From Chloroflexus aurantiacus J-10-fl (lineage in GTDB: Bacteria > Chloroflexota > Chloroflexia > Chloroflexales > Chloroflexaceae): a stretch of DNA of 64,000 nt. Location of the stretch: assembly GCF_000018865.1 (NCBI RefSeq), contig NC_010175.1, positions 3,658,001 to 3,722,000 of the forward strand, in the 5' to 3' direction. The position numbers and the translations under genes were made by a program. The notes under the pieces were generated by a model. It saw only the letters and a list, made by a program, of their open reading frames with translations, made no database searches and was not told the origin of the DNA. Below, one piece after another: positions 23,967-33,052 of this stretch (position 1 is its first letter; each line of letters starts with the position of its first letter).

Positions 23967-25952
23967 GTGTATCTGCCACGTAGCAATCTGCATCGCATCT
24001 TTGCCCTTACTCTGCCAGGTGGGATTGCACTTGGGCTGCTGCTGTATGCTCTGCTTGATATTGTGACACGCTGGGGTAATGGCGAAACGGCGCTGACGTT
24101 TGGCGTTGCGCTTATCCTTGGCGGTATCATTGGCCTGGTCTTGTCACTTGTGGCATGGCTTAGCCTCCGCTATGCCTTGCATGAGGCGCGGCAACACGCA
24201 GTACGGGCATTGAATGCAGACCTTCCACCACTGACCGATACCGATCCACTGGTTGCATTACGTCAGACCGTTGCCGATGCAGTTGCGGCAGTGCCACGCT
24301 CTTCAACGCTGGTAACACTGGCTCAGCGGCTCTGTATGGCCTCTGATCGCGAGGCCATGCTGGCAGCGGTTGCCGAGACCCTATCTGAACATCTGCCGGT
24401 ACGCGGTGTTGTGTTGCTCTTGCACGATGTCGAGCGAGCACTTTTGTTTCCGTCGGCAGCCTGGGGGATCGGTGTTGCCCGGCGAACAACCACATTTGAC
24501 ATCAACAGTAGTGCCGTTGGTCGGGCGTTGCGTGAACGACGCTCTGTTCATCTTTCAAGTGTACAGATGCGGGAATTGTTGAATACCGCTTCGCCTCAGA
24601 CCTTGACGGTCGTGAGCTGGCCGTTATGGGTGCAACAAACGCCTATCGGATCGCTTTGTTTGATATTAGCCGGTACCGATCTGCGCTTGAATGAAGAACA
24701 ACAACAGTTGGTTGAGCACAGTACTACGCTCTTTACAGCTTATCTGCAGACAACGATCTACCGGCAATGGCTGGAACGAGAACAGAATCGCCTGGCGATA
24801 TTCGAGCGGATTGCCGGCAGTGTGGCCGAACAACCTGATCTTGGGCGAGCGCTGGTACAACTCTTGCAAATTGCTGCTGAGCTGACCGAGTCAAGTCACG
24901 GCACCTTCTTATTGATCGACGCCGAGACGTTGACCATTCGTACCCGGATTACGCTCAGCGGTGGCGATGTATTACCGCTTAACCTGGCATCAGCGCCGAT
25001 TCTCAGGCATGGGCTGGCCGGTTGGGTGCTCCGTGCCCAACGTGGGGTCATCATCGATGATATTGAACGTGATACACGCTGGATTCCGACTCCTGGCCTG
25101 GAGTTGATGCGTTCCGCGCTCTCGGTGCCGCTGTTCCACGGCGAACGACCAATCGGTGTGTTGACGCTGGCCAGCCTTAACCCCTATCATTATAGCCAGC
25201 GTTCACTGGCACTGGTATCGGTGCTGGCAGCGTATGCGATTACCGTCATGGTGCGCTACGGCTACGAAGGGATTGTTGAGCCAGAGCACCTGTTTCACGC
25301 CCGGCGGTTGCTGAGTAGATATTTACCACCGACCACGGTACGTGAATTGATGGGTCAGCAAGCGAAGTTAATGCAGGCGCTACAGCCGCAGGCGGTCTCT
25401 GGGGTGTTCGTTTACGCCTGCTTGCGCGGGATCGAGCGTCTGACCGATCTGACCGCTCAACAGTTGTTTGAACGTGTTGCAGCTCCGTTCCATAACGTGT
25501 GTCGGTCGGTAGTTCATCAACAGCGCGGGGTCTACATCGCAATCGACGAGCGAAGTTTCAGCGCAGTCTTTGGCTTTCCACAGCCACAATCTGATGATGC
25601 AGTACGGGCATTGGAGACGGCACGCAAAGTTCAGGCTGTACTTGGCGATGTACGGTTGCAATGGCGACAACAGTTTGGGGTTGATCTCGCGCTGGCCGGT
25701 GGTATTACTACCGGGCAAGTGGTTATTGGCGTGATTGGTCAGGCCGACAATGCAACAATGGCCTGGTCTGGCGCTGCGGTGCGGGAAGCGCAACGATTGT
25801 GTCAATTAGCGCGTAATGATGAGATAGTGGTAGCTGAGAGTGTCTTGAAGACTGTGCCATCCGGTCAATTTGTTCTTGAGCCGTTGACGCCGGTTAGTTT
25901 ACATAATGGAAACGAACCGGCTTCGGTGTATCGATTGGCCGGCCATTTGTGA
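23967..25952 (+). CDS. Two-helix membrane protein with GAF domains and degenerate nucleotidyl cyclase domain
   Basis: 661 residues from a GTG with GAGAGG upstream. Two transmembrane helices (residues 12-30 and 42-68), then GAF-like domains at about 110-265 and 275-430, and a class III adenylyl/guanylyl cyclase homology domain at 445-655. In active cyclases the first metal Asp sits in F-x-D-I-R-x-F; here the segment reads VYACLRGIERLT, with Cys at that place, and the usual GD pair of the second metal strand is not visible before SAVFGFP. So the domain is likely catalytically dead and regulatory. The next gene starts at once after the stop and shares its reading direction and GAF content. Confidence 0.75.
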   Translation: MYLPRSNLHRIFALTLPGGIALGLLLYALLDIVTRWGNGETALTFGVALILGGIIGLVLSLVAWLSLRYALHEARQHAVRALNADLPPLTDTDPLVALRQTVADAVAAVPRSSTLVTLAQRLCMASDREAMLAAVAETLSEHLPVRGVVLLLHDVERALLFPSAAWGIGVARRTTTFDINSSAVGRALRERRSVHLSSVQMRELLNTASPQTLTVVSWPLWVQQTPIGSLCLILAGTDLRLNEEQQQLVEHSTTLFTAYLQTTIYRQWLEREQNRLAIFERIAGSVAEQPDLGRALVQLLQIAAELTESSHGTFLLIDAETLTIRTRITLSGGDVLPLNLASAPILRHGLAGWVLRAQRGVIIDDIERDTRWIPTPGLELMRSALSVPLFHGERPIGVLTLASLNPYHYSQRSLALVSVLAAYAITVMVRYGYEGIVEPEHLFHARRLLSRYLPPTTVRELMGQQAKLMQALQPQAVSGVFVYACLRGIERLTDLTAQQLFERVAAPFHNVCRSVVHQQRGVYIAIDERSFSAVFGFPQPQSDDAVRALETARKVQAVLGDVRLQWRQQFGVDLALAGGITTGQVVIGVIGQADNATMAWSGAAVREAQRLCQLARNDEIVVAESVLKTVPSGQFVLEPLTPVSLHNGNEPASVYRLAGHL

Positions 25953-25961
25953 GTGGGTGTG

Positions 25962-27404
25962 ATGAAGAATGAACCATTGTCGATAAAACGATCAGAGTTA
26001 CATCCTGAGAGTCTATTACGGATTGCAACTGCGATAGAAACGGCAGCAACCCTCGATGAACTCCTCTTGCTGGCGCTGAATGAATTTGTTCAGGGGTTGG
26101 ATGTCTCGATGTGTGGTGTGCTGCTTCTCGATCCGACGGGTGAAACGATCTCGCTGGTCAGTACATTTCCGCCACGGGTTTCGTTACCGCCGCCCCTCCC
26201 GCTACGCGATTTCCCTCTCGTGCGCCAGTCGTTGCAACAGCGACAGGCGCATCAGATATCGGATGTCACCACTCTTTCGGGGCAGAGTAACCGCTCGGCA
26301 GAAACGATGTATCTGCTAAGAATGCTCTCCGAAGCCCGTATCCGTTCACTCTTGATCATCCCACTGGTTGCGCAAGATCAGGTGATTGGTGCATTAGCCT
26401 TTGCAACTATCGATCAGGTGCGTCAGTTTGACGAGAAAGAGGTCTATGTTGCCCGCCTGATGGCCAGTCAATTGGCGGCTGCCATCACCTCATTTCGGAT
26501 GATCGAAGAAGCGGCACGCCGTGAAGCAGAGCTGGCAACCTTGAACGATATTGCTGCGGCAGTCACCTCATCCCTGGACCCGCGAGAGATTTACCATCTG
26601 GTGATGGAAAAGATTAACCAGTTCTTCCACGTCGATGCCGGTTCGCTGCTTATGCTCGATGAAGAGACGGGTGAACTGGTCTTTGTGATGACCCTGGAGG
26701 AAGGGCAGGAAAAGCTGGTCGGCTTGCGTGTGCCACCTGGCCTGGGGATTGTTGGTGATGTGGCACGCACGCAGCAATATGCGATTGTGCATGACCCGGA
26801 ACAAGATGCACGCTTCTACCGTCAGGTCAGTGAAGGGATTGGCTACAATGTTCAGTCTATCCTCTGTGTGCCAATCGTGGTGAAAGGGCGCACAATTGGG
26901 GTGATCGAGCTACTGAACAAGCGTACCGGCCACTTTACTGAAGAGGAAGCGATTCGGCTCACCCGGATGGCGGCGACGATTGGGATTGCGCTAGAGAATG
27001 CCCATCTGTTTCAACAGGTCAGCACAGTCCGTGATCGCTTCGAGGCCATTGTTAATTCAACCAGCGATGGGATTCTCATGGCCGATATGCGCGGGGTCGT
27101 CGTTACCGGAAATCCGGCTGCTGCCCGTATCTTCCATCGTTCACGTGAGGCGCTAATCGGGTGTCGGCTTGCAGAGTTGATCGAAGAATTGATGAACAAA
27201 GCGCTGGTGGTAGAGGAGCCGCCGTGGTTGAATGAAGGCGCACCACATCGTGTGATTGAGATGGAATTAAGCGAGGGAGCTGTCCGTTATCTTCGCCATA
27301 CCATTTTACCGGTGCGCGATACTGCGGGGATGCAGATCGGCAGTCTGGCTCTGTTTGAAGACATTGCGAAAGAGCGAGAGCTGGCGCGTTTGCGTGATGA
27401 TTAA
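25962..27404 (+). CDS. GAF-GAF-PAS sensor half of a histidine kinase (frame-split)
   Basis: 480 residues with no kinase domain. GAF at about residues 25-185 (SLLIIPLVAQDQVIGALAF), GAF at 200-350 (VQSILCVPIVVKGRTIGVIE), PAS at 355-470 (FEAIVNSTSDGILMADMRG). The sequence stops just after ELARLRDD, which is where the kinase HisKA helix should continue. The continuation, from MINTGMLIHDLRVPLTAI, lies one base out of frame and starts 7 bases before this stop. ATG 25962 is preferred over a GTG three codons earlier; neither has a strong ribosome site. See the kinase half next. Confidence 0.8.
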   Translation: MKNEPLSIKRSELHPESLLRIATAIETAATLDELLLLALNEFVQGLDVSMCGVLLLDPTGETISLVSTFPPRVSLPPPLPLRDFPLVRQSLQQRQAHQISDVTTLSGQSNRSAETMYLLRMLSEARIRSLLIIPLVAQDQVIGALAFATIDQVRQFDEKEVYVARLMASQLAAAITSFRMIEEAARREAELATLNDIAAAVTSSLDPREIYHLVMEKINQFFHVDAGSLLMLDEETGELVFVMTLEEGQEKLVGLRVPPGLGIVGDVARTQQYAIVHDPEQDARFYRQVSEGIGYNVQSILCVPIVVKGRTIGVIELLNKRTGHFTEEEAIRLTRMAATIGIALENAHLFQQVSTVRDRFEAIVNSTSDGILMADMRGVVVTGNPAAARIFHRSREALIGCRLAELIEELMNKALVVEEPPWLNEGAPHRVIEMELSEGAVRYLRHTILPVRDTAGMQIGSLALFEDIAKERELARLRDD

Positions 27405-28143
27405 CACCGGGATGCTGATCCACGATCTGCGGGTGCCACTGACCGCGATCATGAACGGCATTATGATGGTGCAGCGGGGATTGGGAGGCTCAATCTCTCC
27501 TCAGCAGCAAGAGTTATTGAGCATTGCCTATCAGGGTAGCGAAACGATGCTGGCGATGGTCAATACCCTGCTTGACATCAGCAAGCTGGAGCAGGGGCGG
27601 ATGACGCTGAACTATGAACAGCTCTCACCGTATGATCTGGTCGAGGATGCTGTTGAGCGGCTTCAGGTAGCAGCTCAGCAACGGCAGATTACGCTGGCTC
27701 GTGACCTGCCCGCTGGATTGCCACAGATTGAGGTTGATCGGGATAAGATTGTTCGTGTTTTGCAAAATCTGATCGATAACGCGGTTAAATTCTCTCCCGA
27801 CAGGGGGGCCGTGACGATAGGTGCGCGCTATCTATCATTGCCAACCGATGCAACCGGCGGTGAACATCCGGCTCTCTCCTTTACCATCCCGGCATTGCTC
27901 GCCGGCGAGTGGCTGGTCTACTGGGTACGGGATGAAGGGCCTGGGATTCCTCCCCAATACCACGCTCGTATCTTCGAGAAGTTTGGGCAGGTACAACAGC
28001 AGAAGTCGCGTGGGACAGGGCTAGGGCTTACCTTCTGCAAGCTGGCTGTCGAAGCGCACCACGGTCAAATCTGGTTGCAAAGCCGTGAAGGATTGGGTAG
28101 TACGTTTGCGTTTGCGCTGCCGGTGAAACGCTGCGACTCCTGA
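27397..28143 (+). CDS. Histidine kinase core half (HisKA-HATPase), frame-split from GAF-GAF-PAS gene
   Basis: 248 residues. H-box MLIHDLRVPLTAI gives the phosphorylated His near residue 9, N-box NLIDNAVKFSP, G1 DEGPGIPP, F-box FEKFGQVQ and G2 GTGLGLTFCK are all intact, so the catalytic part is complete, but there is no input domain of its own. It begins at ATG 27397, eight bases inside the end of the preceding gene (ATGATTAA). A one-base insertion in RDD-TAA would join the two into one 730-residue GAF-GAF-PAS-kinase. Either a frameshift/assembly error, programmed frameshift, or genuine split genes by stop-start coupling. Confidence 0.8.
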   Translation: MINTGMLIHDLRVPLTAIMNGIMMVQRGLGGSISPQQQELLSIAYQGSETMLAMVNTLLDISKLEQGRMTLNYEQLSPYDLVEDAVERLQVAAQQRQITLARDLPAGLPQIEVDRDKIVRVLQNLIDNAVKFSPDRGAVTIGARYLSLPTDATGGEHPALSFTIPALLAGEWLVYWVRDEGPGIPPQYHARIFEKFGQVQQQKSRGTGLGLTFCKLAVEAHHGQIWLQSREGLGSTFAFALPVKRCDS

Positions 28144-28266
28144 AGGGCGTGTTACCAGATTACGAAACTGTTACCAATCCCCTCTGTTCTATCATTGTGT
28201 CATCGGCTATACTGGCTATGAGTCGTCGCCGCACATATATGAATGTATATACACCGGGGGAACGCC

Positions 28267-31005
28267 GTGCGGCAGGTCATCACTGTTTTACGTTCGCGTA
28301 TTCTGTTTACGATCATCCTGCCTTACCTGCTCCTGATGATCATGGTGATGCTCGTCGGTTCGGGTATTGCGATGACGCTGGTAGCGGGAAGCTGGCAGGA
28401 ACGATTCAATAATCAACTCGGGCAGGTTGCACGCAACTTTGCCGAAACCCTGGCTTTGCGCGAGATTAGCAATATTGCCTACCTCGGACAAATCGTGTTT
28501 ACCGCAGCCAATGCCGATAGCGGTGCACCAGCGGTGGTCGACGCTATTGCCCGCCGTGATGAAGATGGGCTGGCAATTGCACTGCGCGGTTTGTGGACAC
28601 TGGGTCAGAGTAACGAGAATATTTCCCCAGATCGGCTGATAGTCTTCGATTCCTCCGGCATGGCGTTGCTCGACTGGGAACGCGCGCCGGTTGGGGATGA
28701 GCCAACCCGGTATGTTGGGACAAACCTTGCCGGCTTGCCGTTGATCGAACAGGTCTTGCAAGGTGTACAGACACCGGTTGGCTCTGACGAAATTCTGGGT
28801 GATAAGTATAGTGGGTTGATTGCTTTCCAACAGGCTGATGGCAGTCAGGTTTTGCACTTCTTTACGGTAGCTCCCGTCTATGCCCGTGCCGATGATGCTG
28901 ACGTGCCACAATTGCTGGGTGGTGTGCTGGTTGCGCAACGGCTCGACCGGACGCTGAACTTTTTGCAGGAGCGTAGCCAGGCTGCCTTGACCGTGTGGTT
29001 AGACAGCAATGGCGATCTCCTGGCTGCTACTGTACCAGAGAGTTTTCGCCCTCTGTTTCGTCTGAATGCGGATCAGATCGAGATGTTGGTGCGCATGAAT
29101 GCGCTCGGTACCTGTCTCGACATTGGCAATCTAACCGGACGGTTGGTAACCCCTATCGAGCCGGTGCGTCTGCCGACCTGTTCGTTGTCGACCACGATCA
29201 GCGCCGGCGACTACGAATATCAACTGGTGTACGCGCCATTGTTGATAAGAGGCTCCCAAAGCGGCTATTTCGCTGTTGGACTGTCACGTGATTTTATCCT
29301 GAGCGCCTGGGCCAGCAGTCGCAACGCAGTTATCGGCGTTACTGCCGGCCTGGCATTAGCGGCGGTGATTGTTGGCTACTGGGTTGCCCGTCAAATTACC
29401 CGTCCACTCGACGAACTAGTCGCAGTAGCCGATGCGGTTAGTGCCGGCGATCTCGACCGGCGCAGTACAGTGCAGGCGGAAAATGAGTTGGGGCGGCTGG
29501 CATTCGCCTTTAACCAGATGACGGCGCATCTGTTGCATTTGTATCAGACCAGCCGTCAGCTTAACCGTGAATTGCAGATTGATGCCATTTTGCAGATTGC
29601 CACCAACAGTGCTACCGATCTCCAACCCCAAACAGAAGCTATTGCCATCGTTCCCGATACCGATGGCTGGCGCTTTCGGGTGCGCACGAATGCACCACTG
29701 AATTATGCGACGCTAACCGAACATGCGCTGACTACACTGCCGGTAAATGGTGAAACGCAACTGGTGCCCTACACCGATCCGTTGCTGGCTGCCGGTGGGG
29801 TGCAAAGTGCTCTGGTGGTGCCATTGCTTCGTGAGCAGCAGACAATTGGTGCGCTTATCTTTGCCCATCCAGAGCGAAATGCCTTTTCATCTGCCGTGCT
29901 GCCGCATTTACAGGCGATTGCCAACATGACAGTAGTGGCTTTGGTGAATGCACTGCTGTATGAAGCTGCGCAACGCGATGCCGAACAGCGCCGTGCTATT
30001 CTGGCCTCAATCAGTGATGGTGTGATTGTCAGTGACGCGCGAGGACGGATTGTATTGCTGAATCCGGCAGCCCGGCAGTTGCTGCAACCGGTGCTGCCGG
30101 CACATGCCGATCTTTCGATCCACGACCTGCCATTAACCGGTAAAGAGGCGCGTTCCGAGCTGTTTGGCCGACCAGAAGAAGTTGTTACGATTGGTCATCG
30201 CTTTCTGACCGTAGGACGAGCACCGGTATGTATGACTGATGGTACCCGGCTCGGTGAGGTGATCGTGTTGCACGATGTTACATCAGCGATCCAGATTGAT
30301 CGGGCCAAGACCGATTTTATCGCCACGATTTCGCACGAGTTGCGCACACCGCTGACGATTGTTCGCGGCTACCTCGAACTGATCCTGCGGCAATCGGCAT
30401 CAGCGCTCGACGCCGAGCAACGTGACATGCTGGAAGAGGTGCGCCAGAGTGCTATCCAGATGACCCATCTGGTCAATAATGCGATTATGGTCGCCAATCT
30501 CGATGCCGGCCAGATTGAGGTGCAGATCCAGCCGGTAGCACTGGCGCCGGTCATCGAAGAGGCACTGCGTCCTTATCGGGCTGTGTTGAGTGAGCGTGAC
30601 ATTCAGGTACTGCTCGTTCTCCCGGACGATCTGCCTCCAGTTCTGGCTGACCGTGAGTTGTTGAAGCAGGCATTGAGTCAGTTGTTCGATAATGCCCGTC
30701 GTTACGTACACCAGGGCCAGATATTGGTGAGCGCAGGGGTCGATAGTGATACACTCTGGCTGGCGATCAGTGATACCGGCCCTGGTATTCCGACCGAGAT
30801 TATGGGGCGTTTGTTTACCCGCTTCCAACGGGTTGACGGGAATAATTCTGCTCAGCGTGGCGGTGGATTAGGTCTGGCAATCACACGTCAGTTGTTGGAG
30901 TTGCAGGGTGGTTCGATAACCGTGACCAGCACGCCCGGTCAGGGAAGCACCTTCACGATCCGGTTACGTTATCCGAAGGAGCGGGGACGTGTCGTCGGCG
31001 GGTAA
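28267..31005 (+). CDS. Sensor histidine kinase with extracellular sensor, HAMP, GAF and PAS
   Basis: 912 residues from GTG 28267 (GGGGGAAC upstream); an in-frame ATG eight codons earlier lacks a site. Transmembrane helix near residues 10-35, an extracellular domain (residues 40-350), second helix [20 protein letters not shown] near 360, HAMP ([20 protein letters not shown]), GAF-like at 460-590, PAS at 595-690, HisKA with [18 protein letters not shown], and HATPase with [17 protein letters not shown] and [12 protein letters not shown]. Both ATP-lid glycine boxes and the H-box are intact. No response regulator is adjacent. It is followed at once, overlapping 17 bases, by the Calx-beta gene. 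Confidence 0.93.
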
Positions 31006-33052
31006 GACACAGACAAATACCGGCCCTGACTATTTGCGCTGGCTGGTAGGAGGAGCGCTTTTGCTGGCGATCCTACCGGTATTCTGTGTCACCCAGGTGA
31101 TCTTCTGGTGGCTGACCCCATACAATCAGCCGTTTATCAGTGTTAGCGCTGCACGCCTGTTGCGAGCGTATGAACCATTTCCGGCCGATCTGAGCTTCGC
31201 GCCACCGGCTGCAGATCTGCCAAATCTGGCAGCGACTGAAGTGGCACGGCGAACTCAAACCCCGACCCAGGCCGCGGCTTTCCCTTCACCGGCACCAATA
31301 ATTGCTGTGCCACCGCCACCTACTCGCATCGATCCACCAACGCCAACGATTACACCAACACCGACCGCAACAGCCACCTCTAGTCCGGCTGGTGGTGGAG
31401 CACCCACATTCACGCCTACTGTCGGCAGTGGTGTGGTTCTGCCGGGGCCAACGGCCACGCCGATAGTCGTGAGCACGCCAACACCAACCCGTTCAACGAC
31501 ACCAACTGTTAGCTCGCCTGTGGTTGCCACTGAAACGGCGACTCCAACCACACCACCAACTGCCCGCCCAACTAATACACCGACGGCAACTGATGTACCG
31601 TTGCCAACAGCAACACCGACACAGCAACCGTTCACTCCGACAGTAACGCCAACACCGGTACCAACCGCCACAACGACACCGACGCGCCAGCCGCCACCGG
31701 TGCCAACAGCTACCTTTACGTCTACACCGACACTAACCATAACGCCCACGCCAGAACCGACTGCCACGGCAACACCGGAGCCAACCGTCACGGCAACGCC
31801 GACCACTACCCTGTCGCCAACGGTCGTGCCACGGCCAACGAATACGCCGACGGCGACGTTCACGCCGGAGCCGACGGCGACGCCCACGCCAGAACCGACT
31901 GCCACGGCAACACCGGAGCCAACCGTCACGGCAACGCCGACCACTACCCTGTCGCCAACGGTCGTGCCACGGCCAACGAATACGCCGACGGCGACGTTCA
32001 CGCCGGAGCCGACCGCAACACCGACGTTCATTGCGACGCCAGTGCCGACCTCGACACCGGAGCCAACCGCAACACCAACGGAGACCCCTGTGCCTGCTGT
32101 ACAGGTGCGTGTCCGGCCAATCGATCCGGTCAATGAAGGTAATCCGCCTGCGGTAACACGCCGTGATGTAGTCATCGAGCTGCTGACAGATGCTGCACTT
32201 GATGTGGAGGTGACGTACCGGGTTGAATCCGGCGGAACATACCCGGCGGGTAATCGAGATTATGGTGTTCCAGGTGGATCATCCGGTACCTTGCGGTTTG
32301 CAGCCGGATCACGGGCGGGCACAACTGCAACTGTTACCATTGAGGTGTATGGTGATGACATTGTTGAAGAGGATGAGACGATTCGTTTTCAACTCACCGG
32401 TATTACCAATGGCGAGCTGATTGATGCCGTGCAGATGTTGACGATCCGTGATGATGATACGGTCGTCGTGAGTGTTGGGCCAGCCGCCGTAGATGAAGGT
32501 AATTCGGGAGCGACAACGCAATTAGAGTTTCCGTTATCGCTCAGTACCACCAATCGTGAGCGCGATGTGCGGGTGCGTTATCGGATTGAACCAATTTCGG
32601 CGACACCCGGTCAGGACTATCAGGCGACAACACCGGCCGAACTGGTCATTCCACGCGATGATCAGAAGCCATCAATTATCGTTGTCGTTATCGGCGATGA
32701 CATCCCTGAGCCGAACGAAACGCTTGAGGTGTTTTTAGAGGCAGTGAGTGGTGGTTCTGTTGGCGCAGCATCAGCCGTTGGCACGATAATTGATGATGAC
32801 ACCCAGAATAGTGTCTTCAAGAGTCAGTGGCCATCGTATACTCAGCGAGTGGCGTATCGCGCTGGCACATTCGTGACGCTGATACCATCGGCAGGCAGAA
32901 TCGCATATTACCCGGAACGTGCTGGTGATCAATCGCTATCGTTGGGGGTGTCGGATTGGCGGGGAAAGAGAAACCAGAGACCGAATTCGAGCGCGATGGG
33001 AATGAAAGCCAGCGCAATCAGCGGTGGCCAGATGGGGCTGAGCGCAAAGTAG
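30989..33052 (+). CDS. Membrane-anchored Pro-Thr-rich Calx-beta protein
   Basis: 687 residues. GTG start inside the end of the kinase gene, with GGAGCGGGG upstream. One membrane span (residues 16-37), a Pro/Thr repeat stalk of about 280 residues, then two Calx-beta domains (about 370-480 and 485-590) with typical [15 protein letters not shown] and [17 protein letters not shown] strands and DDDT turns that bind calcium in this family. The last ~40 codons (after about 32930) run antisense through the convergent membrane gene and look non-native, suggesting a lost stop. Probably an exposed adhesion or sensor-associated protein. The stalk contains a tandem duplication listed separately. Confidence 0.8.
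31742..32013 (+). repeat. 138-bp in-frame tandem duplication in the Pro-Thr stalk
   Basis: Copy 1 31742-31879, copy 2 31880-32013, identical over 134 bases and then diverging. It adds 46 residues to the stalk. Smaller P-T repeats lie around it. Confidence 0.9.

Follow-up and report, generated by a model that had tools for sequence, protein, structure and literature searches.

Chloroflexus aurantiacus J-10-fl is a hot-spring bacterium, and the window analysed here is a 64,000-nt stretch of its genome (contig NC_010175.1, positions 3,658,001 to 3,722,000). Two overlapping open reading frames, ORF A and ORF B, encode a sensor half and a kinase half, respectively, and are flanked on both sides by intact genes (Table 1). 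Two GAF domains and a PAS domain (PAS_4/PAS) were identified in ORF A by Pfam search, and its translation reads ...KERELARLRDD at the C-terminal end, directly followed by the stop codon. The translation of the downstream frame begins MINTGMLIHDLRVPL and continues to the TGA codon, and the Pfam domains found above the cut-off in ORF B are HisKA (profile positions 9-66 of 66) and HATPase_c (89 bits). A preliminary description of this DNA had reported a histidine kinase interrupted at ATGATTAA by a one-base frame change; both the coordinates and the frames were confirmed by translation and Pfam search.

Table 1. Features of the split kinase locus and its flanks (positions refer to the window).
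Feature	Position	Strand	Description
Upstream neighbour	23967..25952	+	GAF-GAF-adenylate/guanylate cyclase-like protein, intact (Pfam)
ORF A, sensor half	25962..27404	+	GAF-GAF-PAS, 480 aa; ATG 25962, TAA 27402-27404 (translation)
ORF B, kinase half	27397..28143	+	248 aa if ATG 27397 is the start; TGA 28141-28143
ATGATTAA, 8-nt overlap of ORF B start and ORF A stop	27397..27404	+	ATG 27397-27399 overlapping TAA 27402-27404
Extra-base site	27402..27405	+	TAAC, against the Tyr codon TAC/TAT in relatives (comparison with fused relatives)
H-box HDLRVPL	27421..27441	+	Val at His+4; Ala there in every relative
Downstream neighbour	28243..31005	+	HAMP-GAF-PAS-HisKA-HATPase_c kinase, intact (Pfam)

Alignment showed that the catalytic motifs NLIDN, DEGPGIP and GTGLGL of ORF B, corresponding to the N, G1 and G2 motifs, are unbroken. 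Likewise, the HDLR H-box that marks the DHp domain of the HisKA/HATPase_c kinase family is present, the phospho-acceptor His being residue 9 of ORF B. Among the 51 HisKA matches over the cut-off in the genome, ORF B is the shortest open frame, and its match is the only one to start at profile position 9. Further downstream, the neighbouring kinase gene is overlapped at its end by a Thr/Pro-rich low-complexity ORF (30989-33052), which has a Calx-beta domain at its C-terminus and an N-terminal region for which matches across species are patchy.

A DNA search of seven other Chloroflexus genomes recovered the locus in six, with one incomplete genome giving no match, and all of the species having the locus (6/6) carry one open frame through the site. 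The same holds for every full-length Chloroflexales ortholog that was read, amounting to 35 distinct fused proteins, and in most of 60 wider relatives the best match is fused, its open frame spanning roughly 617-799 residues; a few fragmented or more distant genomes among the 60 yielded only partial or paralogous best matches. ORF A is 75-82% identical to the N-terminal part of the fused Chloroflexus orthologs and ORF B 76-80% identical to their C-terminal part. Since the two frames each match one part of what is, in all relatives, a contiguous protein, their adjacency is not a matter of chance; sensor and kinase form a single polypeptide in all of these relatives, but not in the reading frame of J-10-fl. 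This search for a conserved fused frame had been proposed as a check in the preliminary description, and its outcome supports the ancestral single GAF-GAF-PAS-HisKA-HATPase kinase of ~730 aa postulated there. Judged from the sequences, the gene encodes a soluble sensor histidine kinase of ordinary type (GAF-GAF-PAS-HisKA-HATPase_c), kept as a single protein throughout Chloroflexales.

Both neighbours are conserved in order within the genus; the cyclase-like gene is also kept at several other Chloroflexales loci, and the downstream kinase gene at most Chloroflexales loci with enough flanking sequence. One contig filed as 'Candidatus Gracilibacteria' (JAAUTF010000148.1, locus L027) is probably misbinned, since the ortholog on it is clearly a Chloroflexales one and its neighbours are conserved.

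At the junction, the relatives share the consensus R(E/D)DY(T/A)xML(I/V)HDLRAPL, and they mostly read CGN GAR/GAY GAY TAY ACN GGN ATG where J-10-fl reads CGT GAT GAT TAAC ACC GGG ATG. Comparison with the fused relatives thus places the extra A shortly before the H-box, in a Tyr codon that is invariant elsewhere. The kinase frame is offset by +1 from that of the sensor half, so J-10-fl carries one base too many compared with its relatives. The suggestion that one inserted base restores the frame was consequently correct with regard to a one-base change and incorrect with regard to its direction. The ATG at 27397, five bases 5' of the ORF A stop, is created by a GAA-to-GAT (Glu-to-Asp) difference that no other Chloroflexus shows; three more distant relatives have an out-of-frame ATG at the same place through codon choice, in genes that are fused. 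A second copy of the junction was found neither with an exact 31-base pattern nor in a protein scan of viral contigs or in the plasmid collection. The lesion is private to one genome, with intact and conserved orthologs, which is the pattern of a frameshift mutation (recent pseudogene). In combination, it is almost certain that this is one conserved kinase, in which a single extra A in the Tyr codon gives a TAA stop and a one-base shift in J-10-fl.

The background frequency of frame breaks was estimated from 1.2 Mb of J-10-fl and 1.2 Mb of a sister genome, using 319 sister-species ORFs with a match of at least 60% identity. Within this sample, frame breaks in J-10-fl were observed in 3/319 shared genes, the split kinase included, while the reverse comparison under the same loose criteria gave eight candidate frame breaks in the sister genome. 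Such frame breaks are not rare, at about 1% of the sampled genes, and against this baseline the kinase split is therefore unexceptional. Two frame-broken ORFs on the minus strand of J-10-fl were recorded individually. A transporter-like membrane ORF (locus L088, G000:C1:3578019), 411 aa in the sister species and resembling an MFS transporter by eye, is broken at about residue 303, and a membrane transporter ORF (locus L181, G000:C1:4250877), 358 aa in the sister species and likened to PucC/MFS proteins by eye only, shifts frame near residue 228, where a CTTCCTTCCT stretch lies.

Between J-10-fl and other Chloroflexus, dN is about 0.11-0.16 for both halves, with dS near or beyond 1.5 (saturation), and purifying selection on both ORF A and ORF B is, on these comparisons, strong. 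No second frame lesion was found in either ORF by comparison within the genus. Strong constraint combined with the lack of a second lesion indicates that the event is either recent or a Sanger-assembly error, and we infer, as a rough figure, that any loss of constraint would have lasted at most a few percent of the interval since divergence from the sister species. Genome-unique substitutions number 15 in J-10-fl versus 6 in the sister species for ORF A, and 13 versus 10 for ORF B. At columns of ORF B that are at least 93% conserved, J-10-fl has six changes, one of them at His+4, where Val replaces an Ala that is otherwise invariant, as compared with 0-3 in other species. These genome-specific substitutions and the mild excess at conserved kinase columns weakly suggest relaxed constraint. 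Branch lengths in the tree for J-10-fl versus the sister species are 0.150 versus 0.090 for ORF A and 0.185 versus 0.145 for ORF B, as compared with 0.226 versus 0.211 for the cyclase neighbour and 0.106 versus 0.177 for the kinase neighbour; the two ORFs do not appear strongly out of line with the neighbouring genes, and no clear signal is seen. As far as sequence comparison reaches, the selection data do not separate a recent mutation from a sequencing error.

The position of the break was further studied in structure models. In the model of the fused sister-species protein (mean pLDDT 79, pTM 0.39, with uncertain domain placement), residues 462-497 form one helix, which leads from the PAS domain past the phospho-acceptor His 480. 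The break falls at about residue 474 of the fused homolog, ~12 residues into this helix. When modelled alone, ORF B gives a DHp hairpin (helices 4-26 and 35-65) and an ATP-binding CA domain with a mean pLDDT of 80.9. Its residue 7 aligns with chain position 27 of the solved histidine kinase 2c2a, and it follows from this alignment that ORF B lacks about 20 residues of the first helix. Since a single signalling helix spans the break, the kinase would no longer be coupled to sensing, and the likely outcome of the split, as modelled, is a kinase core severed from its sensors.

The most serious competitor to a genuine mutation is a base-calling or assembly error, whereby the cell would have an intact fused kinase and the extra A would exist only in the deposited consensus. 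The J-10-fl genome was assembled from Sanger reads with phrap at about 11-fold coverage; the reported error rate is <1 in 100,000 and zero pseudogenes are listed (PMC3150298), and the stated rate still allows up to about 50 errors genome-wide. The full constraint on both halves and the lack of a second lesion fit a gene that is intact in the cell equally, and two more J-10-fl frame breaks are present among the 319 shared genes. Conversely, the assembly was finished, the site GATTAACACC is not a homopolymer and the RNA fold downstream of it is ordinary (z -0.43), while two nearby J-10-fl-specific protein changes and the mild excess at conserved kinase columns speak weakly against an error. Weighing these observations, an error is credited with somewhat less than an even chance. 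A genuine recent mutation in J-10-fl is slightly likelier than an assembly error, with a chance barely better than even; the ATG-creating Glu-to-Asp and the His+4 Ala-to-Val replacements, both unique to J-10-fl within the genus, are weak hints in the sequence that the lesion is real.

Two further possibilities raised in the preliminary description, programmed frameshifting and a conserved two-protein organisation, were not borne out. Programmed +1 ribosomal frameshifting would have the TAA C stop bypassed so that a fused kinase is made at a regulated rate. The two frames do join precisely, and there is a loose resemblance to prfB in that the shift point has a stop codon with C as the next base. 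However, a +1 shift of the P-site GAU gives AUU, with which the Asp anticodon cannot re-pair according to established decoding rules, and neither a slippery codon nor a Shine-Dalgarno-like stimulator is found just 5' of the site. The same ordinary fold counts against a stimulatory structure, and with all relatives fused the out-of-frame arrangement occurs in none of them, so that there is no conserved frameshift signal. On the grounds of codon pairing, lacking conservation and the downstream fold, frameshifting was rejected as highly improbable. A selected split, fixed as useful separate subunits with the overlap tuned for coupled translation, would accord with the conservation of both halves, with an ATG that itself arose through a J-10-fl-specific change and with the -8 nt overlap, a class associated with coupling (PMC10666635). 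It is nevertheless shared by no relative, the three more distant relatives with the same out-of-frame ATG are fused, and the cut lies inside one continuous helix rather than at a domain boundary. Such an organisation is hardly to be believed as a selected trait, and as a conserved one it was rejected because all relatives are fused.

For the preferred recent frameshift mutation, the following sequence of events is proposed. The extra A before the H-box would create an in-frame TAA and shift the remainder by one base, and the mRNA would then yield a sensor-only protein A that ends within the signalling helix. Termination-reinitiation at the overlapping ATG could in addition supply B, a kinase core without sensors, at a lower level; B is predicted to retain the DHp hairpin as well as the His, N, G1 and G2 boxes, but no GAF/PAS input. 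Lacking this input, the output of B would be unregulated or lost. We infer the presence of the extra base in the organism, the occurrence of reinitiation and the activities of the products.

Reinitiation at the overlap, which had been suggested earlier, is supported by the 8-nt stop/start overlap, the spacing of which is that of a termination-reinitiation gene pair. A study of E. coli and Haloferax took overlaps between -8 and +10 nt as predictors of termination-reinitiation (PMC10666635), and 8 nt is among its short-overlap classes. This makes some production of B plausible, although no Shine-Dalgarno-like motif was found in the sequence upstream of ATG 27397. The J-10-fl overlap differs from those pairs in that it arose inside one ancestral gene, and its reinitiation is putative. 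It is quite unlikely, if less so than the two rejected schemes, that the base is both real and fixed in C. aurantiacus, with both products made via coupled translation and B acting as a constitutive or trans-controlled kinase; if true, a GAF/PAS kinase would here be naturally divided into two subunits within its signalling helix.

A related situation is the rcsD frameshift of Yersinia pestis, where a frameshift in a phosphorelay similarly parts C-terminal phosphotransfer from the sensor and a small separate product is possible (PMC10191623). In that case the products and their effects were shown experimentally and full-length protein is also made (PMC10191623); that protein belongs to another family with other domains, and the J-10-fl products are predicted ones. 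No paper on a frameshift in a Chloroflexus histidine kinase was found in the literature search. In comparison with the fused HisKA-type GAF/PAS orthologs of Chloroflexus, Oscillochloris and Roseiflexus, J-10-fl shows the same GAF-GAF-PAS-HisKA-HATPase_c order and the same His, N, G1 and G2 motifs, and differs in that sensor and kinase are parted by one extra base and that His+4 is Val rather than Ala. At His+4, Thr or Asn is usual among HisKA kinases that show phosphatase activity. Given Ala (Val in J-10-fl) instead of Thr or Asn at this position, the GAF-GAF-PAS kinase family of this locus may be without phosphatase activity.

Thus, the split reflects either a recent mutation of an ordinary kind or an error in base calling and involves no special mechanism, and in either case there is no evidence for recoding. 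The correct reading for this model green non-sulfur phototroph is one conserved kinase, split only in this reference genome. If the extra base is an error, the reference genome needs one correction; if the lesion is real, the sequenced strain would be without a normally coupled copy of a kinase that all its relatives retain.
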